DNA of 38,808 nt from Pseudomonadota bacterium (GTDB taxonomy: Bacteria; Pseudomonadota; Gammaproteobacteria; Xanthomonadales; Xanthomonadaceae): the NCBI GenBank assembly GCA_020161335.1, contig JAIUOJ010000001.1:1-38808 (forward strand). Reading direction: 5' to 3'. Shown in pieces: positions 17,874 to 35,485 of this stretch (position 1 is the stretch's first letter; every line of letters begins with the position of its first letter). The translations under genes and the position numbers were made by a program. The notes below the pieces were generated by a model. It saw only the letters and a program-made list of their open reading frames with translations. It made no database searches and was not told the origin of the DNA.

Positions 17874-18034
17874 GGACGTCTCCTCTGCACGTGTCCGGGG
17901 CCGACGGCCGCATGCCGGGCGCGCCACGAATGGCGTCGCGAGACACGCACCGGGCGGCACCGGTGATGGGTCGCCAGTGTCCGGAGTATCGGCGGCCCTT
18001 CCCGGCGCGGTCTAGCACGCGATGCGCCCGGTCG

Positions 18035-18050
18035 ATGCGGAAATCGGCAC
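18035..18050 (-). promoter_or_regulatory. Regulon palindrome, degenerate copy facing the sulfatase operon
   Basis: Read on the minus strand, the site is GTGCCGATTTCCGCAT, which differs from the consensus (A/G)TGCGGATTTCCGCAT only by G to C in the left arm. Its TT spacer is oriented toward the minus-strand sulfatase gene, whose ATG is about 160 bp away. It is the only copy on this strand, and it sits in the divergent control region with a perfect copy for the receptor gene. Confidence 0.55.
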
Positions 18051-18152
18051 AAGGCGCGAGGCGGCCGATCCGCTGGCAGCGCTGTCGTCCGCGCCCGTGG
18101 CGCGCATCCGGCGCCGGCGAACTGGAACGGAGCGCGCAGGAATTCTTCCATT

Positions 18153-18168
18153 GTGCGGATTTCCGCAC
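18153..18168 (+). promoter_or_regulatory. Regulon palindrome upstream of the TonB receptor
   Basis: The sequence GTGCGGATTTCCGCAC is a perfect inverted repeat with 7-bp arms and a TT spacer. It lies 141 bp before the receptor ATG. The core TGCGGATTTCCGCA is identical to the copies at 24505 and 35382. Such 7-bp arms are typical of a dimeric repressor or activator site. Confidence 0.75.
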
Positions 18169-18309
18169 CCATTTCCGGAATTGGACACAAGACGCATGGT
18201 CATCCGCTTGCCGACACTGCAAGGGCAACGGGAGGGGTGTCCTGTGGCCGGAGTTCGCGGCGGCGGGACAGACGGACTCCGCATCACAATACGAACGGGG
18301 GCAAAGCTC

Positions 18310-21300
18310 ATGCAAACCTACAGGACCAACCGACTGCACGGCGCCATCTTGCTGGCACTGGGCGCGGGCACGTGCCTGGCCGCATTGCCGGCGTCCGCCA
18401 TCGCGCAGGACGGGCAGGCGACGGCCACGACGACGAACAAGCAACCGACCGACCTCGACGGCGTGCGCGTGACCGGCTCGCGGCTGCGCCAGGTCGACGT
18501 CGAGACCGCGCAGCCGATCACCCTGATCGACCGCGCGCAGATCGAGAAACAGGGCTTCCAGACGGTCGGCGACATCCTCCAGAACGACCCGGCCATGGGC
18601 ACCCCGCCCAATACCCGCGCCACCGCCAATGCCGGTGGCACCGGTGACGTCGGCGGCAACTACGCCAGCCTCCGCCGGCTCGGCCCGCAGCGCAGCCTGG
18701 TGCTGGTCAACGGCCAGCGCATGGGCACCTCCGTGCAGGGCTTCGCCGACCTGTCGCTGATCCCGGCCGCGGCCGTCGAGCGCATCGAGATCCTCAAGGA
18801 CGGCGCGTCCTCGATCTACGGTTCCGATGCGATCGCCGGCGTCATCAACATCATCACCCGCACCGATTTCGACGGTGCCATCGTCGATACCTACCTCGGC
18901 CAGTACGGCCAGGGCGACGGCACGATCAAGAAGGGCAGCTTCGTGTTCGGCCATACCGGCGAGCGCTACGCGCTGACGGTCGGCGCCGAGGCCTCCAACG
19001 AGGACGCGGTGCTGGCGTCGGACCGCGAGTTCAGCGCCTACCCGCGTTCGTACCTGCACCCGACCGACAACTGGGCGGCGAACATCGGCGGCTTCACCAC
19101 CACCGCGACCAACCGCGTGCCCGGCCTTCCCAACGGCACGCGCGTGGTGCTGCGGCCCGGCGGCAACCCGCGCAACATCAACGACTACATCCGCCAGGAC
19201 ATGAACACCGGGAGCTGCCTGCCCAGCGCCGGTGCCACCATCGACGGCTGCGTGCCGGGCTCGACCCTGCACAAGATCAACGGCCGCGACGGCTTCACCT
19301 TGCGCATGCCGATGGCGACGCGTTCGGTGTTCGCGGACTTCAAGTTCGACCTGACCGACAGCATCGCCTGGCGCACCAACCTGCTCTACAGCACGCGCAA
19401 CGGCGTGGCCACGCTCGGCGGCACGCCCGGCCCGCCGACCAACTGGGAGCCCACGCGCCCGGGCATGTCGGCCAACAGCTACTTCAATCCCACCGGCGCC
19501 ACGCTGACCACCTGGACGCGGCAGACCTCCGAGATCCCGCGGCAGTGGGACCGGACCCTGACGACGCGGCGCCTGTCGTCGATCGTCAGCGGCACCGCCA
19601 GCTGGGGCTCCCGCCACGTCGACTGGGACGTGGGCGCGCTGTACACGCGCAGCGAGAACGAGCAGATCGGCTACGGCCACCTCAACACCATCAACCTGCA
19701 GCGCGCGGTCGGCCCGTCCTTCCTCAACGGCCAGGGCCAGGTGCAATGCGGCACGGCTGCGGCACCGATCGCGTTCAGCGAGTGCGTGCCGTTCAATCCG
19801 TTCCTGCCGATGGGGGTGGAAGGCCCCGGCGGCCTGACCAACAACCGCGAGCTGCAGGACTACCTGTTCCAGCCGTTCACCAACAGCGGCCGGACCGAGA
19901 CCAAGGATTTCGTGGCCAACGTCGCCACCACGCTGTTCAGCCTGCCCGGCGGCGAGATCGGCATCGCCGCGGGCGTGGAACGCCGCGTCGAGACCGGTGA
20001 CTTCATCCCGGCGCTGGTGTCCACCCTGGGCCAGGTGTCGGCGCTCTCCGCCGGCCCGACGCGCGGCAGCTACAGCCTCAACGAAGCGTATGTCGAGATG
20101 GAGCTGCCGATCCTGTCCGGCCTGCCGTTCGCCAAGGAACTGAGCTTCAGCCTCGCCACGCGCTTCTCCGACTACAACACCTTCGGCGAAACCACCAACA
20201 GCAAGTTCGGCCTGCGCTGGCGGCCCAACGACACGCTGCTGGTGCGCGCCACGGTGGCGGACGGGTTCCGGGCGCCGACCATCGCCGACCTGCATGGCGG
20301 CGGTTCGACCACCTTCCCGCAGTACAGCGATCCCTGCGACACCGTGTTCGGCAGCGCCGCGACCAACGCCACCACCCGGGCCAACTGCGCCCGCGACCTC
20401 GGCGCGCTGGCGCCCACCTTCCGCCAGCTGGGCGCCAACCTGCAGCCGGTCGGACAGGCCACGGCGGCGACCGGGGTCCCGTTCCTGGGGACGTCCAATC
20501 CCGACCTGCTGCCGGAGACGGCGAAGTCGCAGACCATCGGCGTGGTCTGGAGCCCGAAGTTCATCGAGGGCTTCAGCGTCACCGTCGACTGGTGGAAGAT
20601 CCGGATCGAGAACACGATCGTCGACGACAGCCCGAACAACATCCTCAACGACTGCTACGTGCTCGGCATCACCAGCCGCTGCCAGCCCACCGCCGGCACC
20701 TCGTTCACCCGCGACCCGGCGCGCGGCTACATCTCGCAGCTCACCTTCTCCAGCACCAACGCCGGCTTCCGCAAGGTGGAGGGCTATGACGTCAACCTGC
20801 GCTATCGCCTGCCGGCGACGCGCATCGGCAACTTCGTGGCCTCGCTCAACACCGCCTACCTGGCCAAGAACTACAACCTGTCCAGCAACACCCCCCGGCG
20901 GGCGCTGTCCAACGTCGGCGAGGACGCCAACTTCCGCGTGCGTGCCCTCGCCAACCTCAACTGGGAGTACGGCAACTTCGGTGCCAGCTGGAGCACGCGC
21001 TACTACTCCGGCCTGTCCGAGCCGTGCACCTACTTCATCACCACGATCATGGAGCCGCACCTGGAGTGCAACGACATCGGCTACCGCCCGACCGGCAACC
21101 TGCCGGGCCAGGGCGTGGAGTCGGCGTTGTCGCGGCTCAACCACACCGGGTCGAATGCGTTCCACGATGTGCAGGTACGCTGGAAGACGTCGTGGGATGC
21201 AAGCATCGCGCTGGGCGCCAACAACGTGTTCGCGCACTACGGGCCGGTGATGTACAGCGCGCCGGGATCGACCTTCGCCTACTATGGCGGCTTCGACATC

Positions 21301-21339
21301 GGCCGTTTCATCTACATGAAGTACACGCAGAAGTTCTGA
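18310..21339 (+). CDS. TonB-dependent outer-membrane receptor
   Basis: This 1009-residue receptor has a signal peptide (MQTYRTNRLHGAILLALGAG, cleavage near AIAQD). A short N-terminal segment with LDGVRVTGSRL, a possible TonB-box region, precedes the plug domain (GDILQNDPAMG, RSLVLVNGQRM, ILKDGASSIYGSDAIAGVINI). A long beta-barrel follows and ends in the aromatic terminus KYTQKF, as expected for outer-membrane insertion by the Bam complex. No N-terminal signalling extension for a FecR-type anti-sigma factor is seen. The gene is followed 12 bp later by the racemase gene and then the S9 peptidase gene, so it probably takes up peptides or peptide-derived ligands rather than iron. The ligand is inferred only from context. 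The regulon palindrome lies upstream. Confidence 0.95.
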   Translation: MQTYRTNRLHGAILLALGAGTCLAALPASAIAQDGQATATTTNKQPTDLDGVRVTGSRLRQVDVETAQPITLIDRAQIEKQGFQTVGDILQNDPAMGTPPNTRATANAGGTGDVGGNYASLRRLGPQRSLVLVNGQRMGTSVQGFADLSLIPAAAVERIEILKDGASSIYGSDAIAGVINIITRTDFDGAIVDTYLGQYGQGDGTIKKGSFVFGHTGERYALTVGAEASNEDAVLASDREFSAYPRSYLHPTDNWAANIGGFTTTATNRVPGLPNGTRVVLRPGGNPRNINDYIRQDMNTGSCLPSAGATIDGCVPGSTLHKINGRDGFTLRMPMATRSVFADFKFDLTDSIAWRTNLLYSTRNGVATLGGTPGPPTNWEPTRPGMSANSYFNPTGATLTTWTRQTSEIPRQWDRTLTTRRLSSIVSGTASWGSRHVDWDVGALYTRSENEQIGYGHLNTINLQRAVGPSFLNGQGQVQCGTAAAPIAFSECVPFNPFLPMGVEGPGGLTNNRELQDYLFQPFTNSGRTETKDFVANVATTLFSLPGGEIGIAAGVERRVETGDFIPALVSTLGQVSALSAGPTRGSYSLNEAYVEMELPILSGLPFAKELSFSLATRFSDYNTFGETTNSKFGLRWRPNDTLLVRATVADGFRAPTIADLHGGGSTTFPQYSDPCDTVFGSAATNATTRANCARDLGALAPTFRQLGANLQPVGQATAATGVPFLGTSNPDLLPETAKSQTIGVVWSPKFIEGFSVTVDWWKIRIENTIVDDSPNNILNDCYVLGITSRCQPTAGTSFTRDPARGYISQLTFSSTNAGFRKVEGYDVNLRYRLPATRIGNFVASLNTAYLAKNYNLSSNTPRRALSNVGEDANFRVRALANLNWEYGNFGASWSTRYYSGLSEPCTYFITTIMEPHLECNDIGYRPTGNLPGQGVESALSRLNHTGSNAFHDVQVRWKTSWDASIALGANNVFAHYGPVMYSAPGSTFAYYGGFDIGRFIYMKYTQKF

Positions 21340-21351
21340 GGGGACCGACGG

Positions 21352-22074
21352 ATGAGAAGCGTCGGCTTGATCGGCGGGTTGTCGTGGCATGCCAGCGCGG
21401 AGTACTACCGCCACATCAACCAGGCGGTGAACGCGCACTTCGGCAACAACACCAACCCGCCGATCCTGCTCGACACCCTCGACCAGCACGACATCCACCG
21501 CCTGCAGGCCGCAGGCAGGTGGGACCAGATCGAACGGATCCTGCTGCGTTCCGCGCGCCGCCTGCAGGCGGCCGGCGTCGAGGCGGTGGCGTTCTGCGCG
21601 AACACGCCGCACAAGGTGTATCCCGGCGTCGCCGCCGGGCTGCGCGTGCCGGTGCTGCACATCGCCGATGCCACCGGCGAGGCGATCCGCGCCGCCGCCG
21701 TCGGCAACGTCGGACTGTTGGGGACGCGCTACGTGATGGAGGATGGCTACATCGCCAAGTGGCTGTCCGCGCATTACGGCATCGACACCCTGGTGCCGCC
21801 GGCCGCGGCGCGTGAACGGATCCACGCGATCATCCAGCGGGAGCTGGCGCTTGGCCGGCTCGGCGACGACAGCCGCGCCTTCCTGCTGGCGCAGATGGAC
21901 ACGCTGCGTGCCGCGGGCGCCGGCGGCATCATCCTCGGCTGCACCGAGCTGCCCCTGGTCTTCGCAGCCGGCGACTTCGCGCTGCCGCTGTTCGACACCA
22001 CCCGGCTGCACGCCGACAAGGTGGTCGACTTCATCCTGTCACCGGAGGCCACGCGCCATGCACGAAGTTCGTAA
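21352..22074 (+). CDS. Aspartate/glutamate racemase family protein
   Basis: This 240-residue cytoplasmic enzyme belongs to the PLP-independent Asp/Glu racemase superfamily. The two catalytic cysteines are in place: Cys82 in FCANTPHK and Cys197 in ILGCTELPLV, with the N-terminal VGLIGGLSW substrate-binding loop. It should interconvert L and D forms of an amino acid by two-base proton transfer. The family includes aspartate, glutamate and broad-specificity racemases, so the substrate is open. It is placed between the TonB receptor (12 bp gap) and the S9 peptidase (17 bp overlap), within the proposed peptide-utilisation operon. A role in handling D-residues from peptides or supplying D-amino acids is possible but unproven. 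Confidence 0.88.
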   Translation: MRSVGLIGGLSWHASAEYYRHINQAVNAHFGNNTNPPILLDTLDQHDIHRLQAAGRWDQIERILLRSARRLQAAGVEAVAFCANTPHKVYPGVAAGLRVPVLHIADATGEAIRAAAVGNVGLLGTRYVMEDGYIAKWLSAHYGIDTLVPPAAARERIHAIIQRELALGRLGDDSRAFLLAQMDTLRAAGAGGIILGCTELPLVFAAGDFALPLFDTTRLHADKVVDFILSPEATRHARSS

Positions 22075-24400
22075 GTCTGCTCGTCGTCGCGGGTCGATCG
22101 TCGCGGCGTACGCCGTGGGCCTGGGTTTGCTGTTCGGGCTTGCGATGGGCGGCGCGGCCGCACGGGACGACGCGCGCACTGCCGAGCTGGACGCCGCGTT
22201 CGCGCGCTACTTCGCGCCGGAGGCGCATGGCCTGGTCGTCGACCTCGACCTGCAGGCCTCGTTCGCAGGCGATGGCGGCGAGGTGGCCTATCGCACGGGA
22301 CCGCTCGAGCACGGCGAGTTCCGGCTCGCCGACCCGGTGCAGGGCGCCACGCGCCTGCTGGTCGACGAGGCCACGCTGCGGGCCGCGCTCTCCGCGGCGG
22401 GGGCGCCTGCCGGTGCGCCGCGACTGGTGCGCTACCTGCCGGCCCGGCAACGGCTGGTGCTGGCGGTCGGCGACGGCGGCCGTGCGCCCGATCCCTTCTC
22501 CGGCGCGGCGCTCGGGGACTCGCGCCAGTGGGCCTACGACCTCGCCACGGGCCAGGCGTCGGTGCAGCCACGGGAAGCGCCGCCACGGGAACTGGTCTCG
22601 CCCGATGGCCGTTCGCGCCTGTTCGTGCGCGACTACAACCTGTGGCTGCGCGACGAAGCCGGCGAAACGGCACTCACCAAGGACGGCAACTACGACCGCC
22701 GCTATGCCACCAACTACCCGCGTTTCAGCCAGCAGGCCGAAGCCGGCAGCGACCTGCCGCCGATGCGGATCGAGGCCGAGTGGTCGCCCGACAGCCGCCA
22801 CGTGCTGACCTACCGCCTCGACCGCAACGGCGCCAGGATCCACGAGGGCGTGCAGACGCAACCGCCCGGCGGCGGCCCGGCGCGCACGTTCAACTACGTG
22901 TATCCCAATGCCGGCGAGGCGCAGGTACCGCTGCTGCAGCCGATCCTGGTCGATGCATCGACGCGCACCGTGCGCGACCTCGACGTGCCGGTGCTGCAGA
23001 TGGTGTTCCCGGTGCCGCCGAAACTGTCGTGGAACAACGGCCGGATCTTCTACGAATGGGCCTCGCGCGGGCAGGGCGAGAACACGCTGTTCGAGGTCGA
23101 TCCCGCCACCGGGCGCGGGCAGGTCCGCGTCCGCGAGGCGCTCGAACCCAACGTCACCGCCGCATCCACCGTGATCCGGCCGCAGCCGGAGCTGGGCGGT
23201 ACCGTGCTGGTGTCCGAGCGCAGCGGCTGGGCGCAGCTGTACCTGGTGCCCGATGGCAGCGATCCTGCCGGCGGCAGGCGCCTGACCGAAGGCGATTGGG
23301 AAATCAGCGCGCTGCTCCACGCGTCGCCCGACGGCATCCTGGTGACGGGCAAGGGCCGCGAGCCCGGCGAGAACCCATACTACGACCACCTGTACAGGGT
23401 GGGCCTCGACGGCAGCCTGCTCCGGCTGACGCCGGAGCCGCTGAACCACGAGGTGGAGGTGTCGAAGGACGGGCAGTGGTTCCTCGACCGGATGTCGAGC
23501 CCCTCGCAGCCGCCGCTGACGGTGCTGCGCAGCACGCGCGACGGCCGCACCGCGCTGGAGCTGGGGCGTGCCGATCCCTCGGCGCTGCTGGCCGACGGCT
23601 TCCGCGTGCCGGAAGTGTTCCAGGGCCTGGCGACGGACGGAAAGACGCCGCTGTACGCTACCATCTTCCGCCCGCGCAACTTCGACCCGACGCACCGCTA
23701 TCCGGTGATCGAGCACATCTACACCGGGCCGACGCGGCACCGCTTCCGCGGCGACTACGCCGCCAACATCGCCGGGATGCAGAGCGCGCTCACCCAGCTC
23801 GGCGCGATCGTGGTGACGATCGACGCGCCGGGCACCCTCGGCCGCGGCCGTGCGTTCCGCATGCAGGCCTTCCGCAACCTGCACGCGGTGGGCGTCGACG
23901 ACCACGTGGGCATGCTGCGGCAGATGCAGGCGCGCTATCCGTCCATGGACATCGACCGTGGCGTCGGCGCGATCGGCGGGTCCTCCGGCGGCTACGACAC
24001 CTTCCGCTTCATGGTGCGGCGTCCCGACATCTACGTGGCCGGCGTGTCGCAGTCGGGCAACCATCAGCTGCGCATGGTCAAGGCCTGGTGGCCGGAGATG
24101 CAGATGGGCCTGCCCGATGAATCGGTATGGGCGGCGAACTCGAACGCCACCTATGCCGATCGCCTGCAGGGCAAGCTGCTGCTGGTGCATGGCGACCTCG
24201 ACGACAACGTGCCGATCGGAACCACGCTCACCCTGGCGGCGGCGCTGGACAAGGCCGGCAAGCCCTATGAACTGCTGGTCCTGCCGAACGTGGGCCACTC
24301 GGTGCGCACGCCGGAGTTCCATCGCGCGGTGCGCCGCTTCTTCCTTGCCGAACTGATCACGCGCGAAGTCCCGCGCGCGACCGCGCCGGACGCCCCGTAG
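22058..24400 (+). CDS. Exported S9 family peptidase (dipeptidyl-peptidase IV-like)
   Basis: This 780-residue serine peptidase has a basic N-terminus and a hydrophobic segment (residues about 12-36), consistent with a signal peptide or anchor. A beta-propeller region (about residues 40-510) precedes an alpha/beta-hydrolase domain with nucleophile Ser643 in GGSSGGYD, Asp715 in HGDLDDNVP and His747 in NVGHSVR. This matches DPP-IV-type enzymes, which remove X-Pro or X-Ala dipeptides from N-termini. Substrates with proline or hydroxyproline in the second position would suit collagen-like peptides. The ATG at 22058, with a GGAGG upstream, overlaps the racemase gene end by 17 bp. The gene ends the receptor operon. 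A GC-rich stem-loop follows. Confidence 0.93.
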   Translation: MHEVRKSARRRGSIVAAYAVGLGLLFGLAMGGAAARDDARTAELDAAFARYFAPEAHGLVVDLDLQASFAGDGGEVAYRTGPLEHGEFRLADPVQGATRLLVDEATLRAALSAAGAPAGAPRLVRYLPARQRLVLAVGDGGRAPDPFSGAALGDSRQWAYDLATGQASVQPREAPPRELVSPDGRSRLFVRDYNLWLRDEAGETALTKDGNYDRRYATNYPRFSQQAEAGSDLPPMRIEAEWSPDSRHVLTYRLDRNGARIHEGVQTQPPGGGPARTFNYVYPNAGEAQVPLLQPILVDASTRTVRDLDVPVLQMVFPVPPKLSWNNGRIFYEWASRGQGENTLFEVDPATGRGQVRVREALEPNVTAASTVIRPQPELGGTVLVSERSGWAQLYLVPDGSDPAGGRRLTEGDWEISALLHASPDGILVTGKGREPGENPYYDHLYRVGLDGSLLRLTPEPLNHEVEVSKDGQWFLDRMSSPSQPPLTVLRSTRDGRTALELGRADPSALLADGFRVPEVFQGLATDGKTPLYATIFRPRNFDPTHRYPVIEHIYTGPTRHRFRGDYAANIAGMQSALTQLGAIVVTIDAPGTLGRGRAFRMQAFRNLHAVGVDDHVGMLRQMQARYPSMDIDRGVGAIGGSSGGYDTFRFMVRRPDIYVAGVSQSGNHQLRMVKAWWPEMQMGLPDESVWAANSNATYADRLQGKLLLVHGDLDDNVPIGTTLTLAAALDKAGKPYELLVLPNVGHSVRTPEFHRAVRRFFLAELITREVPRATAPDAP

Positions 24401-24430
24401 ACGCCCGCGGCGACAGGGCCCGGGCGCTTG

Positions 24431-24476
24431 CCGCGGGCCTGCCGACGCGGCTTGCGGCCGGCGGCCCGCGGGCCGC
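24431..24476 (+). terminator. GC-rich inverted repeat after the S9 peptidase gene (possible terminator)
   Basis: The arms CCGCGGGCC (24431-24439) and GGCCCGCGG (24463-24471) are perfectly complementary, and 24461-24476 is itself a 16-bp palindrome, GCGGCCCGCGGGCCGC. This could end transcription or stabilise the 3' end of the receptor operon. There is no T-run, so an intrinsic terminator is not certain. Confidence 0.35.
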
Positions 24477-24504
24477 GACACGGCGCCGTACGGTCGCCGT
24501 CTTT

Positions 24505-24520
24505 ATGCGGATTTCCGCAT
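24505..24520 (+). promoter_or_regulatory. Regulon palindrome upstream of the hydroxyproline operon
   Basis: The sequence ATGCGGATTTCCGCAT is a perfect 7-bp-arm inverted repeat with a TT spacer, 55 bp before the epimerase ATG. It is identical to the copy at 35382, and it points in the transcription direction. It lies in a short AT-rich patch at the end of an otherwise GC-rich gap. Confidence 0.78.
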
Positions 24521-24575
24521 CGATCCCACCGATGGCGTGCTAGTCCGCGGCGAAGGCCGGCAACCACAATGGGCC

Positions 24576-25517
24576 ATGCAGACAGTCATGGTCATCGATT
24601 CGCACACGGCCGGAGAGCCTACCCGCGTGGTGCTGTCGGGCTTCCCGGACCTCGGCACGGACAGCCTTGCGGAACGTCGCGCGCGCTTCCGGAAATACTT
24701 CGACCGGTGGCGCAGCGCGATCGCCTGCGAGCCGCGCGGCTCCGACACCGTCGTCGGCGCGCTGCTGCAGGCGCCGGTCGATCCGCGCTGCTGCGCCGGG
24801 GTGATCTTCTTCAACAACGTCGGCTACCTCGGCATGTGCGGTCACGGCACGATCGGCCTCACCCGCACCCTGTGGCACCTCGGGCGGATCGCGCCGGGCG
24901 CGCACCTCATCGAGACCCCGGTCGGCGTGGTCGGCGTGGAGCTGCACGACGACGGCCGCGTGTCGGTGGACAACGTGGAGAGCTATCGCGCGGCCGCCGC
25001 CGTCGCGGTCGACGTGCCCGGCCACGGCCGCGTGGTCGGCGACATCGCCTGGGGCGGCAACTGGTTCTTCATCACCGGGCACTCGCCGGCGCCGCTCGAC
25101 CTGGCGCACGAACCCGAGCTCAGCGCATTCACGCTGGCGGTGCAGCGGGCGATCGACGCGGCGGGGATCCGCGGCGACGACGACGGCATCATCGACCACA
25201 TCGAGGTCAGCGGCTACGCGCCCGACGGTTCGGGCGCGCGCAACTTCGTGATGTGCCCCGGCGGCGCCTACGACCGCTCTCCCTGCGGCACCGGCACCAG
25301 CGCCAAGCTGGCCTGCCTGCACGCCGACGGCCAGCTGCGCGAGGGCCAGTCCTGGCTGCAGCAGGGCATTCTCGGCAGCACGTTCGAAGGCGTGTTCCGC
25401 ATCGGTGAGCGCGGCGTGCTGCCGCGCATCACCGGGCGCGCCTGGGTCACCGGCAGCGCCGAGATCCTGATCGAACACGACGACCCGTTCGCCTGGGGCA
25501 TCCGCAAGGAGGCCTAG
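24576..25517 (+). CDS. lhpA: 4-hydroxyproline 2-epimerase (proline racemase family)
   Basis: This 313-residue cytoplasmic enzyme converts trans-4-hydroxy-L-proline to cis-4-hydroxy-D-proline, the first step of the bacterial hydroxyproline pathway. It is a proline-racemase fold with both catalytic cysteines: Cys88 in GMCGHGTIG and Cys237 in SPCGTGTSAK. The Cys/Cys pair fits an epimerase rather than the 3-hydroxyproline dehydratase, which has Thr in the first position. The N-terminus MQTVMVIDSHTAGEPTRVV is characteristic, so I chose the ATG at 24576 over an earlier GTG at 24537. A CACAAT hexamer ends five bases before the ATG, so the transcript could be leaderless. The five downstream genes of the same pathway, closely packed, make the assignment firm. 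Confidence 0.94.
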   Translation: MQTVMVIDSHTAGEPTRVVLSGFPDLGTDSLAERRARFRKYFDRWRSAIACEPRGSDTVVGALLQAPVDPRCCAGVIFFNNVGYLGMCGHGTIGLTRTLWHLGRIAPGAHLIETPVGVVGVELHDDGRVSVDNVESYRAAAAVAVDVPGHGRVVGDIAWGGNWFFITGHSPAPLDLAHEPELSAFTLAVQRAIDAAGIRGDDDGIIDHIEVSGYAPDGSGARNFVMCPGGAYDRSPCGTGTSAKLACLHADGQLREGQSWLQQGILGSTFEGVFRIGERGVLPRITGRAWVTGSAEILIEHDDPFAWGIRKEA

Positions 25518-25518
25518 G

Positions 25519-26619: not shown

Positions 26620-26879
26620 CCGCGAGCGCCGTCGCGCCGGCCAACGTGTGCCTCGTCATCGACGGGGTCGAGGTCACGGTCGCCCGTGGCACCAGCGTGG
26701 CGGCGGCGATCGCGCACGCGGGCGCGGGCGGACGCCGGTCGGTCCTGGGCCAGCCGCGCGCGCCGCTGTGCGGCATGGGCATCTGCTTCGAATGCCGGGC
26801 GACCATCGACGGCCACGCCCAGCGGCGCACCTGCCTGGTGCCGGCCGCCAACGGCATGGTGGTGGTGACCGATGGCTGA
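26616..26879 (+). CDS. D-hydroxyproline dehydrogenase, 2Fe-2S (gamma) subunit
   Basis: This small protein of 87 residues starts at a GTG that overlaps the beta-subunit stop (GTGA). It is a ferredoxin-like domain with CGMGICFEC plus a downstream Cys in RRTCLVP, the ligands of a 2Fe-2S cluster in the HcnA/SoxA-like (Fer2_4) family. It should carry electrons between the two flavoprotein subunits. It overlaps the alpha-subunit gene by 8 bp. Confidence 0.9.
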   Translation: MTASAVAPANVCLVIDGVEVTVARGTSVAAAIAHAGAGGRRSVLGQPRAPLCGMGICFECRATIDGHAQRRTCLVPAANGMVVVTDG

Positions 26880-28182: not shown

Positions 28183-29081
28183 GCAAGACCATGTGGCAGG
28201 GTGTCATTCCTGCACTGACCACCCCTTTCACCGCCGACGGCGAGGTCGACCACGACTTCCTCGCGCGGCATGCGCGCTGGCAGGTGGAGGCCGGCTGCAT
28301 CGGCGTGGTCCCACTCGGATCGTTGGGGGAAAGCGCGACCCTGTCGTTCGAGGAAAAGGTGGCGATCGTGCGCACCCTGGTGCGCGCGCTCGGCGACACC
28401 GCCCCGGTGATCCCGGGCATCGCCGCACTGTCCACGGACGAAGCCGTGCGCCTGGCGAAGGCAGTCGAAGCCGAGGGCGCGCGCGGGCTGATGGTGTTGC
28501 CGGCGTATGCCTATTCCACCGACTGGCGTGAAATGGGCGCGCACCTGCGCGCGGTGATCGGCGCCACCGGGCTGCCGGTCCTGCTCTACAACAACCCGAT
28601 CGCCTACAAGACCGACTTCAGCGCCGCGCAGATCGCCGAACTCGCGCGCGAGTTCCCCCAGGTCGAGGCGGTCAAGGAATCCTCCGGCGACCTGCGCCGG
28701 TTCGCCGAGATCCAGGAACTCTCCGGCGACCGGCTGGTGCTGCTGACCGGCATCGACGACGCGATCGTCGAGGGCATCGCGATGGGGGCCACCGGCTGGA
28801 TCGCCGGCCAGGTCAACGCTTTCCCGCACGAATCGGTGGCGCTGTTCGAGCGTGCGCGCGCCGGCGGCTATCCGGCGGTGAAGGCGCTCTACGACTGGTT
28901 CCTGCCGCTGCTGCGCCTGGACACGCTGCCCAAGTTCGTACAGCTGATCAAGCTCACCCAGCAGTGCGTGGGCTGGGGCGACGAGCGCGTGCGTGCGCCG
29001 CGGCTCGTGCTGGAAGGCAGTGAACGCGCCGCTGCGCTGGCCGTGATCGACCGCGGGATCCGGACCCGCCCCGCGCTGTGA
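28179..29081 (+). CDS. lhpC: 1-pyrroline-4-hydroxy-2-carboxylate deaminase (DapA/NAL family)
   Basis: This 300-residue class I aldolase-fold enzyme has Schiff-base Lys166 in VEAVKESSGD and the conserved Tyr137 in LLYNNP. The N-terminal GVIPALTTPF is the family's usual start. In the hydroxyproline pathway, the enzyme deaminates and dehydrates pyrroline-4-hydroxy-2-carboxylate to 2,5-dioxopentanoate and ammonia. A true dihydrodipicolinate synthase is unlikely given this context. The ATG overlaps the preceding stop and has AGGAG eight bases upstream; its own stop overlaps the GTG of the dehydrogenase gene. Confidence 0.92.
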   Translation: MSKTMWQGVIPALTTPFTADGEVDHDFLARHARWQVEAGCIGVVPLGSLGESATLSFEEKVAIVRTLVRALGDTAPVIPGIAALSTDEAVRLAKAVEAEGARGLMVLPAYAYSTDWREMGAHLRAVIGATGLPVLLYNNPIAYKTDFSAAQIAELAREFPQVEAVKESSGDLRRFAEIQELSGDRLVLLTGIDDAIVEGIAMGATGWIAGQVNAFPHESVALFERARAGGYPAVKALYDWFLPLLRLDTLPKFVQLIKLTQQCVGWGDERVRAPRLVLEGSERAAALAVIDRGIRTRPAL

Positions 29082-30679
29082 GCCGGTCCGTGCTCGAACC
29101 GGTGCTGGTGGCGGGCGGCTGGCGCGACGCGGTCGAGCCGGTCGGCGAGCTGCGCGCGCACGATCCGTCCACCGGCGAGGCGATCGGCCCCGCGTATCCG
29201 GTCAGCGGCGGGCGCGAGGTCGAGGATGCCGTGGCCGCGGCCGTGGCGGTCGCGGAGGCGCTCGCCGCCACCGACCCGCGTCGCATCGCCGCATTCCTCG
29301 ACGCCTATGCCGAAGGCATCGAGGCGCAGGCGGATCGCCTCGCCGCGCTGGCGCACCTGGAAACCGGCCTGGCGCTGGCGCCGCGGCTGCGCGACGTCGA
29401 ATTGCCGCGCACCACCGGCCAGCTGAGGCAGGCCGCGCGCGCGGTGCGCGAACACAGCTGGACGCAGCCGGTGATCGATACCGCCAGCGGCCTGCGCGCC
29501 ATGTTCGGTCCGCTCGGCAAGCCGGTCGTGGTGTTCGGCCCGAACAATTTCCCGTTCGCGTTCAACGCCGTCGCCGGGAGCGATTTCGCATCGGCGATCG
29601 CCGCGCGCAACCCGGTGATCGCCAAGGTGCATCCGCTGCATCCGGGCACCAGTCTGGCGCTGGCGCGGATTGCGCATGAAAGCCTGCTGTCGGTCGGGCT
29701 GCCGGCCGCCACGGTGCAGATGCTGTATCGCACCGAGCACGACGCCGCGTCGCTGCTGGTGGGACAGGCGTGCATCGGCGGGGTCGGGTTCACCGGCGGA
29801 CGGGCGGGAGGGCTTGCCCTGAAGGCGCAGGCCGATGCCGCCGGCGTGCCATTCTACGGCGAGATGTCCAGCATCAATCCGGTGTTCCTGCTCGAAGGCG
29901 CGCTGTCCGCGCGCGGTGACGCGCTGGCGCTGGAGTTCTTCAATTCCTGCACCCTGGGCAGCGGCCAGTTCTGCACCAACCCCGGCCTGGTGGTGGTGCC
30001 GTCGACCGACGCGGGCGATGCCTTCGTCGCGGCGGCGGCGGCCCATTTCGACGCCGCACCGGCGCAGGTGCTGTTTTCAGAGGACGGTCGTCGCCACCTG
30101 GTGGCGGCGATCGATACCCTGCGCGTCGCCGGTGCGCAGCGGCTCGCCGGCGGCGACATCCCCGCGCGCGCCGGCTACCGGATCCAGCCGATGCTGCTGC
30201 AGGTCGAGGGCGCCAGCTTCCTCGCCGACGCCACGGCACTGCAGACCGAAGCGTTCGGACCGGTCAGCCTGCTGGTCCGCAGTACCGGCGCGGAGCAGTC
30301 GCTGGCGATCGCGCGGGCGTTCGAGGGCAGCCTGACCGCCACCGTGTACCGCGCCGCGGACGGCAGCGACGACGAGGTCGCGGCGGCGTTGCTTCCGCCG
30401 CTGCGGATGCGCGCGGGGCGCATCGTGTTCGACCGCATGCCGACCGGCGTGGCGGTGAGCCCGGCGATGAACCATGGCGGCCCGTATCCGGCCACCAGCC
30501 ATCCGGGCTTCAGTTCGGTCGGCATGCCGGGCACGATCCGCCGCTTCGCCGCGCTGCACAGCTACGACAACGTGCCGCAGGCGCTGCTGCCGCCGGCGCT
30601 GCGCGACGCCAATCCCGATGGCATCTGGCGCCAGGTGGACGGACGCTGGCAGGCCGGCGACGTCGGGGCGGGCGCGTGA
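29078..30679 (+). CDS. Alpha-ketoglutarate semialdehyde (2,5-dioxovalerate) dehydrogenase
   Basis: This 533-residue aldehyde dehydrogenase starts at a GTG overlapping the deaminase stop (GTGA). Catalytic residues are Cys299 in GSGQFCTNP and Glu262 in FYGEMSSINP; VFGPNNFPFAFN and GFTGGRAGG form the NAD(P)-binding and substrate-channel region. The length and the FYGEMSS pattern match the NADP-preferring KGSADH group found in hydroxyproline and sugar-acid pathways. It finishes the route by oxidising 2,5-dioxopentanoate to 2-oxoglutarate, which enters the TCA cycle. Coenzyme choice cannot be judged from sequence alone. Confidence 0.93.
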   Translation: MSRSVLEPVLVAGGWRDAVEPVGELRAHDPSTGEAIGPAYPVSGGREVEDAVAAAVAVAEALAATDPRRIAAFLDAYAEGIEAQADRLAALAHLETGLALAPRLRDVELPRTTGQLRQAARAVREHSWTQPVIDTASGLRAMFGPLGKPVVVFGPNNFPFAFNAVAGSDFASAIAARNPVIAKVHPLHPGTSLALARIAHESLLSVGLPAATVQMLYRTEHDAASLLVGQACIGGVGFTGGRAGGLALKAQADAAGVPFYGEMSSINPVFLLEGALSARGDALALEFFNSCTLGSGQFCTNPGLVVVPSTDAGDAFVAAAAAHFDAAPAQVLFSEDGRRHLVAAIDTLRVAGAQRLAGGDIPARAGYRIQPMLLQVEGASFLADATALQTEAFGPVSLLVRSTGAEQSLAIARAFEGSLTATVYRAADGSDDEVAAALLPPLRMRAGRIVFDRMPTGVAVSPAMNHGGPYPATSHPGFSSVGMPGTIRRFAALHSYDNVPQALLPPALRDANPDGIWRQVDGRWQAGDVGAGA

Positions 30680-31881
30680 GCGACCAACAGATTGGCCACC
30701 TCGACCTGGTGTCGGCGCGCGCGCGGCTGGCGCCGTGGCCGACGCCCGCGCCACCGATCACGCCAGCCGAACATGATGCGCGCCTCGAGCGGGCGCGCGG
30801 ATGGATGCGCGTGCAGGGCGTGGACGCGCTGCTGTTGACGGCCGGCCCGTCGCTGCGCTACTTCGCCGGCATCCCGTGGCGCGCGACCGAGCGCCTGGTG
30901 GCGATGCTGCTGACGCTCGACGGCGATCCGCTGCTGGTGTGCCCGGCGTTCGAGGAAGGCTCGCTCGACGCGGTGCTCGCGATCACGGCCGGCAAGCGCC
31001 TGTGGCAGGAGCACGAGGACCCGCATGCGCGCGTGGCGCAGGCGATGGCCGAGCGCGGCGCGCGCACGCTGGCGCTCGATCCCGGCGCTGCGTTCGCGGT
31101 GCACGTCGGCCTGCGTGCGCACCTGGACGCGACCGCCATCGTCGATGCCGGCGCGATTATCGACGGCTGTCGCATGTGCAAGTCGCCGGCGGAGCTGGCG
31201 CTGATGCAGCAGGCCTGCGACATGACCCTGTCGGTGCTGCGCCTGGCCGCCGGCATCATCCGCGAAGGCATCGGCAGCGACGAGCTGGTGCGCTTCATCG
31301 ACCTGGCGCACCGTGCGCTCGGCGCCGACAACGGTTCGACCTTCTGCATCGTGCAGTTCGGCGCGACCACCGCCTTCCCGCACGGCCTGCCCGGCGTGCA
31401 ACGCCTGCGCGAAGGCGAGCTGGTGCTGATCGATACCGGCTGCAGCGTGCAGGGCTACAACTCGGACATCACCCGCACCTTCATCTTCGGCGTGCCCGAC
31501 AACCAGCAGCGGCGCATCTGGGCGCTGGAACGCGAGGCGCAGGCCGCGGCCTTCGCGCGGGTCCGCCCCGGGGTGCCGTGCGAGGACATCGACGCCGCCG
31601 CGCGGCGCGTGCTGGAAGCGGCGGGACTGGGCCGCGACTACCGGTTGCCGGGATTGCCGCACCGCACCGGCCACGGCTGCGGCCTGGCGATCCACGAGGC
31701 GCCCTACCTGGTGCGCGGCAACCGGCTGCCGCTGCAGCCGGGGATGTGCGCCAGCAACGAACCGATGATCGTCCTGCCCGGCGCATTCGGCGTGCGCCTG
31801 GAGGACCATTTCCACGTCACCGAGGACGGCGCGCGCTGGTTCACGCCGCCGTCTCCGGCCATCGACCGACCGTTTGCATGA
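30676..31881 (+). CDS. M24 family metallopeptidase (Xaa-Pro dipeptidase/aminopeptidase type)
   Basis: This 401-residue pita-bread-fold peptidase has no signal peptide. Its GTG overlaps the dehydrogenase stop. An N-terminal creatinase-like domain is followed by the catalytic domain. The metal ligands appear in order: LIDTGCSVQGYNSDITRTF (two Asp), HRTGHGCGLAIHE (His), ASNEPMI (Glu) and VRLEDHFHV (Glu). Proline peptidases of this class release the residue before proline, or split X-Pro dipeptides. Being the last enzyme in the hydroxyproline operon, it probably frees hydroxyproline and proline from imported di- or tripeptides. Creatinase-like roles are possible in the family but less likely here. 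Confidence 0.92.
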   Translation: MSDQQIGHLDLVSARARLAPWPTPAPPITPAEHDARLERARGWMRVQGVDALLLTAGPSLRYFAGIPWRATERLVAMLLTLDGDPLLVCPAFEEGSLDAVLAITAGKRLWQEHEDPHARVAQAMAERGARTLALDPGAAFAVHVGLRAHLDATAIVDAGAIIDGCRMCKSPAELALMQQACDMTLSVLRLAAGIIREGIGSDELVRFIDLAHRALGADNGSTFCIVQFGATTAFPHGLPGVQRLREGELVLIDTGCSVQGYNSDITRTFIFGVPDNQQRRIWALEREAQAAAFARVRPGVPCEDIDAAARRVLEAAGLGRDYRLPGLPHRTGHGCGLAIHEAPYLVRGNRLPLQPGMCASNEPMIVLPGAFGVRLEDHFHVTEDGARWFTPPSPAIDRPFA

Positions 31882-31945
31882 CCCGATCCGCCGCCGTCCC
31901 GGTCGTGCGCACGCCCGACCCGTCCGTACCGATGCAAGGTGACCC

Positions 31946-33514
31946 ATGGCCGCACAAGGCAAGTTCCGCAAGACGCTCACGCTGACCGACCTGACCTTCA
32001 TCGGGCTGGGGTCGATCTTCGGCTCCGGCTGGCTGTTCGCGGCCAGCCATGTGGCGTCGATGGCCGGGCCGGCGGGGATCCTGTCGTGGGTGTTCGGTGG
32101 CGTCGCGGTGTTCCTGCTGGGGCTGGTGTACTGCGAGCTTGGAGCGGCCTTGCCGCGTGCCGGTGGCGTGGTGCGCTATCCGGAGTACTCGCACGGCCCG
32201 CTGCTGGGCTCGTTGATGGGCTTCATCACCCTGATCGCGTTCTCGAGCCTGATCGCGATCGAGGCCGTGGCCAGCCGGCAATACGCGGCGGCGTGGTTCC
32301 CGTCGCTGACCCAGGCCGGCAGCACCAGCCCCACGCTGCTCGGGTGGGCGGTGCAGTTCGGGCTGCTGGTGCTGTTCTTCCTGCTCAACTACTTCAGCGT
32401 GAAGAGCTTCGCGATCTCCAACAACATCGTCAGCGTGTTCAAGTTCATGGTGCCGGTGCTGGTGATCGTGCTGCTGCTGGCGCACTTCGACGGCGACAAC
32501 CTGCGCGTGCAGGGCTTCGCGCCCTACGGCGTCGCCGGCGTGCAGGCGGCGATCTCGACCGGCGGCATCATCTTCGCCTACCTCGGCCTGACCCCGATCG
32601 TGTCGGTCGCCAGCGAGGTGCGCGATCCGCAGCGCACGATCCCGTTCGCGCTGATCCTGTCGATCCTGCTGTCGACCGCGATCTACGTGCTGCTGCAGGT
32701 GTCCTTCCTCGGCAGCATCCCGACCGCGCAGGTCGCGACCGGCTGGGCCGGCATCGACACGCTGTACTCGCTGCCGTACCGCGACATCGCCCTGGTGCTC
32801 GGCCTGGGCTGGCTGGCGTGGCTGGTGGTGGCCGACGCCGTGGTTTCGCCCAGCGGCACCGGCAACATCTACATGAGCGCGACGCCGCGGGTGATCTACG
32901 GCTGGGCGCGCAGCATCGGCATCAAGTCGTTGACCAGGGTCGATGCAAAGTCGGGCATTCCGCGCCCGGCGCTGTGGCTCAGCTTCGCGCTGTCGGTGTT
33001 CTGGACGCTGCCGTTCCCGTCGTGGGAGAAGCTGATCGGCGTGGTCTCGGCGGCGCTCATGCTCAGCTACGCCGCGGCGCCCGTGACCGTGGCCGCGCTG
33101 CGACGCAGTGCACCGGGGCTGGCAAGGCCGTTCCGGGTGCGCGCGCTGGCGTTGCTCGGTCCATTGTCGTTCATCGTCGCCGCGCTGATCGTGTACTGGT
33201 CGCGCTGGGAAACGCTGTCGTGGCTGCTCGGCCTCCAGGTGCTGATGTTCGCCGGCTACGTGCTGTACCGGCTGCCGTCGCAGGCCGGGCGCGCGAAGCT
33301 GCTGCGGCAGGTGCAGTGCGCGCAGTGGTTGATCGTGTTCTACGTGCTGGTGATGGTGGTGTCGTACCTCGGCACCTTCGGCGGCATCGGCGCCATCCCG
33401 CACCCCTGGGACACGCTGCTGGTGGGCGTGGTGTCCTTCGGCGTGTACCTGTGGGCCGCGCGTTCGGGCCTGCGCAGCGACGAACTGGCGCTGGAAGACG
33501 ACGACGGCGCGTAG
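31946..33514 (+). CDS. APC-superfamily amino acid permease, candidate hydroxyproline/proline transporter
   Basis: This 522-residue transporter has about 12-14 hydrophobic helices. The first helix carries the APC glycine motif FIGLGSIFGSGWLFAA, followed by GGVVRYPEY and the helix 6 region AYLGLTPIVSVASEVRDPQRTIP. It starts 64 bp after the M24 gene, with AAGGT before the ATG, and no palindrome lies between them, so it is probably read from the hydroxyproline operon promoter. Uptake of free hydroxyproline, proline or another amino acid is the likely role. It could also export a surplus amino acid. It is distinct from the CAT-type permease at 1368. Confidence 0.9.
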   Translation: MAAQGKFRKTLTLTDLTFIGLGSIFGSGWLFAASHVASMAGPAGILSWVFGGVAVFLLGLVYCELGAALPRAGGVVRYPEYSHGPLLGSLMGFITLIAFSSLIAIEAVASRQYAAAWFPSLTQAGSTSPTLLGWAVQFGLLVLFFLLNYFSVKSFAISNNIVSVFKFMVPVLVIVLLLAHFDGDNLRVQGFAPYGVAGVQAAISTGGIIFAYLGLTPIVSVASEVRDPQRTIPFALILSILLSTAIYVLLQVSFLGSIPTAQVATGWAGIDTLYSLPYRDIALVLGLGWLAWLVVADAVVSPSGTGNIYMSATPRVIYGWARSIGIKSLTRVDAKSGIPRPALWLSFALSVFWTLPFPSWEKLIGVVSAALMLSYAAAPVTVAALRRSAPGLARPFRVRALALLGPLSFIVAALIVYWSRWETLSWLLGLQVLMFAGYVLYRLPSQAGRAKLLRQVQCAQWLIVFYVLVMVVSYLGTFGGIGAIPHPWDTLLVGVVSFGVYLWAARSGLRSDELALEDDDGA

Positions 33515-33529
33515 GCCTGGGTCGCGCCG

Positions 33530-33552
33530 CCGGCGCGTGTCCCGCGCGCCGG
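33530..33552 (+). terminator. Stem-loop after the permease gene (possible terminator)
   Basis: The arms CCGGCGCG (33530-33537) and CGCGCCGG (33545-33552) are perfectly complementary with a 7-base loop. The position, 15 bp after the permease stop and before a 170-bp gap, suits an end to the hydroxyproline operon. No T-run follows, so the call is tentative. Confidence 0.4.
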
Positions 33553-33724
33553 ACTGTGCGCGATTGCGCGTCCGCGGGCGCGAACCGATGCAAGACGCGC
33601 CCTGCGTCCCGGCACACACTGGCTCCGCGACGCGCGCCTGCAGCGCGTCCGATGACCTGGCCCGCGTGCCGCACGGCGCCATTGCCGCGACCGACATTCC
33701 GATCCAACCAAGAAGGGGGGAGAC

Positions 33725-34564
33725 ATGACGACACACTTGCAAGGGCAGCCCCGCAGGCGCGCCAACGCCATCGACGGCTCGATGCTGGCGCGCGTCGCGG
33801 CGGCGCTCGCCATCGGGCTCGGCCTGTGCGTGGCCAGCCAGCGCGCGTCCGCCCAGGTCGAGCAATGGGCGCCTGGCGTCGCGGTCAACCTGTCGCACGG
33901 CATCCTCGGGACCGACACCGGCGTGGCGCCGAGTTCGGTGGGCTACCAGGGTCGCAAGGAGCGCAAGGTCTACGATCGACGCGTGTCCAAGAACATCACC
34001 ATCAATGCCTACGTGTTCAAGGTCACCTGGCCCAATGGCGCGACTGCCGAAGGCATCCTGAATCCCGAGTTCGGCTCCAGCGCCAACGCGCGCCAGGCGC
34101 TGGACCAGTTCCTGCCGGCGGTGGGCCGCTTGCCGTTCTGCCTGCGCAGCAAGGTCGACGAACTGGTCATCCACAAAGGTGACGAGGCCTATGGCGGCGG
34201 TGGCAACGGGTTGCTGCTCTACGCCGGCCGCGCGCGCTACGGGGAGCCGGAGTACGACGAGATCGTGGTGCACGAGGCCGCGCACAACCTGGGCCAGCAG
34301 ATCCAGGACAGCCAGGCGTGGAAGAACGCCCAGTCCGCCGACAAGGCGCAGGACGGCAGTGGCCGGCAGGGATACATCTCGGTGTACGCGCGGGACAATC
34401 CTTCGCGCGAGGACGTGTCCGAATCGTTCCTGGCCTGGCTGCTGCTGCGCAAGCGCAACGACCGGCTCTCCGCCGGTGAACGCGCCTACATCGAAGGCAC
34501 GATCCCCAACCGCCTGCAGTACTTCGATGCCATGGCCTGCAACACGCACCCGGTCGGGCTGTAG
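33725..34564 (+). CDS. Exported putative HExxH metalloprotease of unknown family
   Basis: This 279-residue protein has a signal peptide whose hydrophobic part is at residues about 20-38, with cleavage near ASAQ. Residues 183-187 are HEAAH in EIVVHEAAHNLG, a zincin motif, and Glu233 in EDVSESFLAW is well placed as a third metal ligand, as in gluzincins. Two cysteines (residues 139 and 272) in the mature part could form a disulfide. GGGGGG ends four bases before the ATG and could serve as the ribosome binding site. I recognise no named family. It is upstream of an unknown membrane-anchored protein and between the hydroxyproline operon and the aminopeptidase. Proteolysis of extracellular or periplasmic protein to feed the locus is an appealing inference, not shown. 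Confidence 0.75.
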   Translation: MTTHLQGQPRRRANAIDGSMLARVAAALAIGLGLCVASQRASAQVEQWAPGVAVNLSHGILGTDTGVAPSSVGYQGRKERKVYDRRVSKNITINAYVFKVTWPNGATAEGILNPEFGSSANARQALDQFLPAVGRLPFCLRSKVDELVIHKGDEAYGGGGNGLLLYAGRARYGEPEYDEIVVHEAAHNLGQQIQDSQAWKNAQSADKAQDGSGRQGYISVYARDNPSREDVSESFLAWLLLRKRNDRLSAGERAYIEGTIPNRLQYFDAMACNTHPVGL

Positions 34565-34579
34565 CGCCTTGCCGCGCCG

Positions 34580-35341
34580 ATGGACGTCCGTCGACGCGGC
34601 CGCAGGCTGCGCATGATCCGACGCCCTCGCCGGGTTGCGCCCGCGGCCGCCACACGGGCGCGTACCCGGATGCTCGCCATGGGCGTCGCGGGCGTGCTGG
34701 GGCTGTTTGCATTCGACACGGCAGGCCCTGGCGGGCGCGGCTCGGGTGGACCCGACGCACAGGCGTCGCCGCGACCGGCCCGGGTCGACCCACCGGTGCC
34801 GGCAAGCGTGACGCAGGATCGCGGGCCCGCGACGGCGCCCGCGTCGGTCGACGTGGTCACCTCCCCGATGCCGCCGCCGATGGATCTTCAAGCGGGCCCG
34901 TGGGCGGGCGAGGGCCTGTGCCTGACGGGCGTGGTGATCGCCCCCGGCCTGCGGCTGGCGCTGTTGCGTCCGCGCGCGGGTGGGGCGTCGCTGCACGTGC
35001 GGCTGGAGGACTCGCCGGCCGCCCTGGCAGGCTGGCGCCTGGCGGACGTGCAGCCCGACAGCGTCCGCTTCGAAGGGCCGGACGGGAGCCGCACCCTGCG
35101 CCTGCAGGCGACCGAGACCCACGGCGCGATGGCCACGGCGACGCCCGTCGTGCGATCGGTGGACATGGAGCCGAGGGTCGCACCGGAGACCGCGCCCGTG
35201 GCGGACTCCGCGGACGCACAGCTGTCGCGCCTGCGCCGGCGGATCGCAGCCTCAAGCGAGGACGTGCGCCACCTGCTCACCGCCGAGGAATGGATCCGGG
35301 CCAGCGATCCGGATCGCGTGTCGACGCGGCTCGCCCACTGA
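34580..35341 (+). CDS. Membrane-anchored hypothetical protein with GspC-like periplasmic region
   Basis: This protein of about 253 residues starts at ATG 34580, 15 bp after the zincin gene; a start at a later Met (residue 12 or 31) is possible. There is an Arg-rich N-terminus, one hydrophobic segment (residues about 31-47), a Pro/Ala-rich linker, then a folded stretch (about 110-175) with LTGVVIAPGLRLALLRP, AGWRLADVQPDSVRFEGPDG and RTLRLQ. This resembles, weakly, the periplasmic homology region of type II secretion GspC or GspN proteins. The C-terminus (SRLRRRIAASSEDVRHLLTAEEW) is a predicted helix. No other secretion genes are in the window. It may belong with the preceding exported metalloprotease. 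The function is unknown. Confidence 0.55.
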   Translation: MDVRRRGRRLRMIRRPRRVAPAAATRARTRMLAMGVAGVLGLFAFDTAGPGGRGSGGPDAQASPRPARVDPPVPASVTQDRGPATAPASVDVVTSPMPPPMDLQAGPWAGEGLCLTGVVIAPGLRLALLRPRAGGASLHVRLEDSPAALAGWRLADVQPDSVRFEGPDGSRTLRLQATETHGAMATATPVVRSVDMEPRVAPETAPVADSADAQLSRLRRRIAASSEDVRHLLTAEEWIRASDPDRVSTRLAH

Positions 35342-35381
35342 GGGCGCGGGGCCTCGCCGCGCGCTGGACACTCCCCGCGTC

Positions 35382-35397
35382 ATGCGGATTTCCGCAT
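35382..35397 (+). promoter_or_regulatory. Regulon palindrome upstream of the aminopeptidase-POT operon
   Basis: The sequence ATGCGGATTTCCGCAT is a perfect inverted repeat identical to the copy at 24505, and it lies 88 bp before the aminopeptidase start. It is followed after 10 bp by CACAAT (35408-35413). The orientation of the TT spacer again matches the downstream plus-strand genes. Confidence 0.78.
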
Positions 35398-35485
35398 ACA
35401 AAGCGCCCACAATCGCCTAGCAGGCCCGTTCGCCCTCGCGGTACGGTCGACCCACGGGCCGGGTCGCGCCCGTCCCGCCCGTCAG

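Follow-up and report, generated by a model that had tools for sequence, protein, structure and literature searches.

Four operator-like sites around the hydroxyproline genes of a Xanthomonadaceae genome probably belong to the regulon of an LhpR-type PAS-AraC activator

A 38,808-nucleotide (nt) stretch of a Xanthomonadaceae genome (assembly GCA_020161335.1, contig JAIUOJ010000001.1, positions 1 to 38,808; the window hereafter) carries copies of one short sequence in front of four transcription units, among them an operon for hydroxyproline use, which raises the question of what reads these copies and whether the units form one regulon. A first-pass annotation had proposed a 16-bp palindrome through which one dimeric regulator, possibly a nearby AraC protein, controls all four. 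We found that the copies are probably operators of an activator regulon of the LhpR type, whose regulator would be a PAS-AraC protein encoded at 12586-13314 on the minus strand; the element and its association with this gene were computed, and binding is predicted from them. LhpR, the namesake from Pseudomonas aeruginosa, was reportedly described by Li and Lu in 2016. Most likely, a single sensor protein would turn on the genes for hydroxyproline breakdown and, with them, those for an outer-membrane importer, for peptidases and for other scavenging functions. The sites and the regulator gene are as follows.

12586-13314, minus strand: PAS-AraC regulator (PAS_4 + HTH_18), LhpR-type, proposed to bind the operators
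18012-18049, minus strand: operator TGCCGATTTCCGCA (18036-18049) and CTAG box (18012-18015), before the sulfatase operon
18154-18191, plus strand: operator (18154-18167) and CAAG box (18188-18191), before the TonB receptor operon
24506-24543, plus strand: operator TGCGGATTTCCGCA (24506-24519) and CTAG box (24540-24543), before the hydroxyproline operon
33557-33594, plus strand: weak fifth candidate TGCGCGATTGCGCG, with CAAG at 20 nt; the gene it precedes is putatively secreted and metallopeptidase-like
35383-35420, plus strand: operator (35383-35396) and CTAG box (35417-35420), before the M17 aminopeptidase and POT transporter genes

A scan of the window recovered perfect copies of the 14-mer TGCGGATTTCCGCA at the three plus-strand operators and the single-mismatch copy on the minus strand, at the places given by the first-pass annotation; every copy lies upstream of a gene in the same direction, and the TT spacer it had described, read toward the gene, is present in all four. 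Its judgement that chance was very unlikely also held, with four matches at no more than one mismatch against a mean of 0.01 in 100 dinucleotide shuffles, none of which reached four. With as many as three mismatches allowed, the count of 8 is ordinary: 5.24 were expected, and 25 of 100 shuffles gave at least as many. The symmetric core spans 14 bp, and the pair flanking it is A-T at two perfect sites and G-C at the third. A four-letter box stands exactly 20 nt after the GCA of every copy, CAAG in front of the TonB receptor and CTAG at the other three sites; both this box and the weaker candidate at 33557 were absent from the earlier description. A scoring matrix trained on the epimerase promoters of relatives, with the window excluded, ranked the four sites at the top (45.7, 43.7, 39.7 and 18.9), followed by the place at 33557 (12.2, compared with 30.4 for the weakest training site); the next window score was -15.0 and the best of 30 Markov windows (one strand) was 1.8.

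The search was extended to the whole genome assembly (3.56 Mb, 252 contigs, 95% complete), where the exact 14-mer occurred three times, always within the window, and single-mismatch copies eight times, once in the window and seven times elsewhere, all seven inside open reading frames (ORFs) set by a simple ORF caller. The bipartite pattern TGCnnAnTTCCGCA-N20-CTAG matched the four window sites at 0-1 mismatch, nothing at two mismatches and 42 places at three; a reversed control matched 60 places at up to three mismatches, which marks the 42 as background. The full element is not scattered through the genome, and because only the four window sites were found at 0-2 mismatches, the regulon of this genome appears to be a single locus with four strong sites.

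The shape of the element was read from 120 epimerase upstream regions (the window plus 119 loci, all holding the regulator gene, some genomes being present under two records), which were scored with no weight given to the box downstream. In each region the best 14-mer agreed with TGCGGATTTCCGCA at 10 or more of its 14 positions, and C[TA]A[GT] lay exactly 20 nt downstream in 119 of the 120. The strict pattern, TGC-N6-C-N2-CA plus C[TA]A[GT], likewise matched 119 of 120 regions at spacing 20, compared with at most one region at any of ten other spacings and none in the ten shuffled sets. The 88 distinct 26-mers gave the profile ATTR-TGC-n-G-A-w-TTCCGCA-T, with TGC, C10, C13 and A14 invariant. 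Judged from this comparison, the conserved unit is a bipartite element of fixed spacing, ATTR-TGCnGAnTTCCGCA-T-N19-CWAG, and not the 16-bp palindrome first proposed. Its right arm, TCCGCA, was near-invariant (82 of 88 distinct sites), whereas the left arm was TGCCGA in 41, the commonest form, and TGCGGA in 13; left positions 4 and 5 vary while their partners hardly do, and the ATT flank is found on the left only. Since perfect 6+6 palindromes made up just 16 of the 88 sites, a strict palindrome was ruled out as the conserved unit: a dyad-like core is present, yet its strict form has not been kept by selection. The dimer deduced from it, with arms so unequally conserved, is unsupported.

Among 149 genomes of the family, the exact 14-mer was present in 20 (reversed control, 0), with 25 copies outside the genome of the window. 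Seven of these sit between a PAS-AraC gene and an epimerase gene, and five, each with CAAG at 20 nt, precede a gene for a TonB receptor, for GH127 or for a secreted protein whose family is unknown; the ORF caller put two of the five (L071 and L076) inside ORFs, having set the start too far upstream. Counting 14-mers alone proved misleading, because 13 of the 25 copies are isolated, 12 of them inside called ORFs and one intergenic, and none has CWA[GT] at 20 nt. The exact bipartite element was found in 93 of 395 family genomes (reversed control, two genomes) and a PAS-AraC homologue (E <= 1e-40) in 156. All 93 element-bearing genomes carry the homologue, and the element was found in none of the 239 genomes without one, a co-occurrence that bears out the AraC protein as the candidate regulator. 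A variant ending in CAAGA (element-N20-CAAGA) gave 50 matches in 47 of the 395 genomes, all 47 with the regulator, and 0 in the reversed control. The first-pass annotation had tied its regulon to conservation of the sites at orthologous promoters, which we found at the hydroxyproline promoter (119 of 120 regions) and at promoters of the TonB receptor type (47 of 395 genomes), and not at the sulfatase and M17 sites.

Beyond these genomes, named relatives of the regulator (at least 80 loci) include Xanthomonas, Stenotrophomonas, Lysobacter, Pseudoxanthomonas, Dyella, Rhodanobacter and one Roseateles, whose locus has the same element with CTAG at 20 nt before the epimerase. Homologues at 1e-20 were present in 30 plasmid records, among them Paraburkholderia, Caballeronia, Burkholderia, Pseudomonas and Deinococcus. 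A looser form of the element gave 11 matches at spacing 20 in ten Burkholderiales and Deinococcus loci (of 20 records), distributed over seven of the ten, and 0-3 matches at each of the other spacings from 14 to 26. Two class-wide searches found the epimerase (1e-60) in 5 of 274 genomes and the regulator (1e-40) in 4; among loci outside the family, two that have the epimerase but no regulator at 1e-40 both lacked the site, a sample too small to count.

The regulator has an N-terminal PAS domain (PF08448, 5.7e-19) and a C-terminal AraC helix-turn-helix domain (PF12833, 1.3e-26), whose two recognition helices are nearly invariant among relatives. It shares 48.4% identity over 91% of its length (E 3e-62) with the AraC protein of a P. 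aeruginosa lhp cluster, the gene of which is flanked by racemase, DHDPS, aldehyde dehydrogenase and lhpD genes; from this gene order and the literature, rather than from the record name, we infer that it is PA1261. The epimerase was also present in 48 of 60 regulator loci, as a divergent pair in 47, and the other 12 are paralogues or are clipped by a contig end. The window regulator is about 11 kb from the epimerase and not divergent from it. It follows DUF885 by about 100 bp at the end of a minus-strand run, sulfatase-FGE-DUF885, that begins behind the 18036 site, and because the regulator gene ends a run that would be driven from that site, positive autoregulation is plausible.

AraC-family proteins can act at a class II promoter as one subunit with two helix-turn-helix units. 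The PAS domain would here sense hydroxyproline or a near metabolite, while the two units of the AraC domain would read the boxes ATTRTGC and TTCCGCA, about one helical turn (about 11 bp) apart, beside the -35. The bound regulator would then bring RNA polymerase to CWAG, a poor -10 at a set distance of 20 nt, in the style of class II activation. The constant spacing of CWA[GT], seen in 119 of 120 regions, would fit such a geometry, and the two boxes, which end near -35 relative to CWAG, would fit a single AraC-type subunit. In this lineage the regulon would also drive the sulfatase-FGE-DUF885 run with the regulator gene at its end, as well as the M17-POT unit for peptide use.

Several observations weigh against this interpretation. 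CWAG is a poor fit to the sigma-70 -10 consensus. The regulator was assigned by association, and because presence follows clades, the Fisher test of its co-occurrence with the element (p 1.6e-48) overstates independence and is only indicative. The 120 epimerase regions came from loci picked for holding the regulator or the site, and 63 regulator-bearing genomes (probably paralogues or variants) lack the exact element. Left-arm variants covary no more with the DNA-binding domain than with PAS (mean normalised mutual information 0.227 versus 0.250). Three of the ten distant loci have no match at spacing 20 (L373 and L375 none at all, L377 one at spacing 19). A search of the 51 other genomes of the genus at E <= 1e-100 found no relative of the sulfatase; the M17 site at 35383 has the lowest matrix score of the four, below the training minimum of 30.4; and the site was absent, by a looser pattern, from 29 M17 loci of other genomes of the genus. 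The window M17 gene is itself a second copy, the other (71% identical) being on contig C73 (G000:C73:9483-11006, L409) with no site nearby by the strict pattern. Lacking conservation, the sulfatase and M17 targets look like recent, lineage-specific recruitments, backed by the structure of their sites. The proposal of a single regulon under one regulator survives in that the four sites form a real regulon, without conservation found for the sulfatase and aminopeptidase sites.

An alternative that we consider unlikely is a PAS-linked AraC dimer with one subunit on the 14-mer and the second downstream, so that CWAG would be a contact of the regulator and not a -10. The poor -10 fit speaks for it, as does the exact retention of CAAGAC or CTAGNC-like boxes at 20 nt in Gammaproteobacteria, Betaproteobacteria and Deinococcus; however, CTAG is only about 30 nt from the epimerase start, which leaves scant room for a separate downstream -10, and CWAG resembles neither box of the 14-mer. 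Distinctly improbable is the idea that the sites are true dyad operators for a head-to-head dimer of a single-helix-turn-helix regulator, such as a repressor of the GntR/HypR type, with the AraC gene a mere neighbour. The core TGCnGAnnTCnGCA is indeed dyad-symmetric, with perfect copies both in the window and in Caballeronia (TGCCGAAATCGGCA, at two oppositely directed sites), and passages of PMC5343134 describe a GntR-type HypR controlling hydroxyproline genes in other Proteobacteria. Against this, in an analysis that covered the sites and the AraC gene, stand the scarcity of perfect palindromes, the variable left positions 4 and 5 opposite near-invariant partners and the one-sided ATT; moreover, a search that used the site and not the regulator placed 7 of the 25 exact copies outside the own genome in the gap between the AraC and epimerase genes, and the exact element never occurred without an AraC homologue in 395 genomes. 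That the copies arose by chance, or represent a dispersed repeat or an RNA element, is hardly credible, since the ordinary window count at three mismatches and the isolated exact 14-mers in other genomes are outweighed by the absence of any shuffle (0 of 100) reaching four at up to one mismatch, by the 13 isolated copies in relatives that all lack CWA[GT] at 20 nt (12 inside called ORFs), by the lack of an Rfam match in the window at the gathering threshold, and by the own-genome scan, the family-genome scan and the pattern in the epimerase regions, which already contradict it.

Around the sites lie the following genes of the window.

13414-15198, minus strand: DUF885 gene, between the sulfatase genes and the regulator
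15229-16131, minus strand: FGE-sulfatase (sulfatase-modifying factor 1-like) domain protein
16263-17870, minus strand: sulfatase
18283-21336, plus strand: TonB-dependent receptor
21352-22071, plus strand: Asp/Glu racemase family protein
22046-24397, plus strand: S9 / dipeptidyl peptidase IV family protease
24573-25514, plus strand: 4-hydroxyproline epimerase (Pro_racemase, Pfam)
25519-26616, plus strand: FAD oxidoreductase (DAO), likely D-hydroxyproline dehydrogenase subunit (role by pathway knowledge)
26616-26869, plus strand: 2Fe-2S subunit (Fer2_4)
26872-28179, plus strand: Pyr_redox_2 FAD subunit
28173-29078, plus strand: DHDPS family, likely pyrroline-4-hydroxy-2-carboxylate deaminase (role by pathway knowledge)
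29078-30676, plus strand: aldehyde dehydrogenase, likely alpha-ketoglutaric semialdehyde dehydrogenase (role by pathway knowledge)
30676-31878, plus strand: M24 peptidase with creatinase/prolidase N-terminal domain
31946-33511, plus strand: amino acid permease (APC)
33725-34561, plus strand: putative secreted protein, HEAAH motif seen by eye; lies behind the weak fifth site
35486-37039, plus strand: M17 aminopeptidase family
37107-38738, plus strand: POT oligopeptide transporter

The core target, with roles taken from family membership and pathway knowledge, is the hydroxyproline operon of epimerase, three-part D-hydroxyproline dehydrogenase, deaminase, aldehyde dehydrogenase and M24 peptidase. 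Among NCBIfam models, the epimerase best matches those of 4-hydroxyproline epimerase (3e-119), yet its 398 bits fall short of their curated cut-offs of 442-450. The HEAAH protein had no significant Pfam match, Peptidase_Mx1 reaching just E 0.22. A search of the genome for collagenase M9 found no match; the control was likewise blank, so this is no evidence either way.

The targets of CAAG-type promoters differ among relatives. In 30 loci the gene behind the site encodes a secreted protein of unknown family (22), a TonB receptor (5, the window included) or GH127 (2), with a contig end in the remaining one, and 17 longer regions behind CAAGA-type sites contain TonB receptors in 15 and GH127 homologues in 12. 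The TonB receptors behind these promoters are merely about 30-40% alike. One GH127 gene (L065:6855-9278) was identified as a beta-L-arabinofuranosidase (Pfam, E 4.5e-124); GH127 had no match in the genome of the window, and three control genomes did match. Three Dyella and Rhodanobacter loci have a site before DUF885, and Lysobacter-group genomes have further exact elements before DUF885 (one genome) and before a gene of about 485 residues (three genomes), one of which was scanned and is an amino-acid permease.

The secreted protein directly behind CAAG-type sites in 22 of the 30 loci is about 785 residues long and has a twin-arginine start (by eye), often with a TonB receptor and GH127 after it (L076:7379-9733, with homologues in L349-L351, L353-L360 and others). 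At the cut-offs used, it matched nothing in PDB, Pfam or NCBIfam, and an AlphaFold2 model was too poor to use (mean pLDDT 57).

Comparison with described systems places the regulator close to LhpR. Passages of PMC6608401 describe LhpR of P. aeruginosa as an AraC-family protein that activates the lhp genes on binding L-Hyp, and a table in PMC8694187 assigns a PAS domain to PA1261 (LhpR). The window protein (48% identity over 91% of its length) has the same PAS plus AraC-type helix-turn-helix arrangement; the operator and the targets described here (TonB receptors, GH127, sulfatase, M17-POT) are those observed in Xanthomonadaceae. The P. aeruginosa lhp cluster has one operator-like match, upstream of lhpD (L372:10844-10857, 20 nt before CAAG); no bipartite match was found in that record before the ABC-transporter operon. 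Regulons of HypR (GntR family) in other Proteobacteria are covered by passages of PMC5343134 and PMC3223726. Those of Sinorhizobium, Shewanella and Streptomyces serve the same pathway, and HypR of several Alteromonadales also controls a putative TonB-dependent transporter, according to part of PMC5343134; the regulator, as the papers describe it in these parts, belongs to another family, which makes this a non-orthologous solution. In the text of PMC5343134, the word 'xanthomonad' is absent and 'Xanthomonas' occurs once. The third system, xehypBA2-AA of Xanthomonas euvesicatoria, encodes enzymes for arabinosylated hydroxyproline under HrpX and the PIP box, as stated in parts of PMC6085000. It likewise concerns glycosidases, those of hydroxyproline-rich glycoproteins, one of them GH127, but its PIP box, TTCGC-N15-TTCGC, is another sequence; the same excerpts report, as data not shown, that xehypBA1 (GH127) is upregulated in infected plants without a PIP box. 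Our literature searches, which did not cover RegPrecise, found no description of this operator or regulon, so the first-pass impression of an undescribed regulon holds for these, and not for the type of regulator, LhpR being known from P. aeruginosa.

Taken over all loci, the comparison indicates a real, well-conserved operator and regulon of the LhpR type with lineage-specific targets, in which binding by the regulator, its effector, autoregulation and the class II geometry are predicted. The resulting sequence rule would predict, genome by genome, hydroxyproline-responsive candidates in Xanthomonas, Stenotrophomonas, Lysobacter, Luteimonas and Rhodanobacteraceae, and would tie uptake receptors and glycosidases of cell-wall glycoproteins to amino-acid catabolism. 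It might offer a reason for the plant induction of the X. euvesicatoria GH127 gene without a PIP box, if that gene is the same as the GH127 genes here, and it might yield substrates for members that lack annotation, for example the secreted family of 785 residues. More tentatively, and with the balance somewhat against it, one grammar, ATTR-TGCnGA-n2-TCnGCA-N20-CWAG, may extend from Deinococcus to Xanthomonadaceae, with CWAG a regulator-specific box and not an ordinary -10. It would serve in plant-associated Xanthomonadaceae as the switch of a hydroxyproline-glycoprotein regulon comprising receptor, arabinofuranosidase, peptidases, permease and catabolism; in the present genome a sulfatase and peptide arm would replace the missing arabinosidase arm, as if for sulfated or animal-type hydroxyproline polymers.

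Paralogues of the regulator also occur. Loci with an AraC paralogue and no epimerase (n=29, 27 of them with 400 bp of upstream sequence) lacked the site there by the pattern used. Xanthomonas has a second PAS-AraC protein, about 55-58% identical to that of the window, with no epimerase in the locus and no site in 400 bp upstream (L153, L161, L162, L325, L327, L328, L330-L336 and L339). At one of the 29 loci, L364 (G029:C18), the opposite flank of a paralogue with 62% identity carries a CAAG-type site that precedes a TonB receptor, which suggests a satellite regulon.

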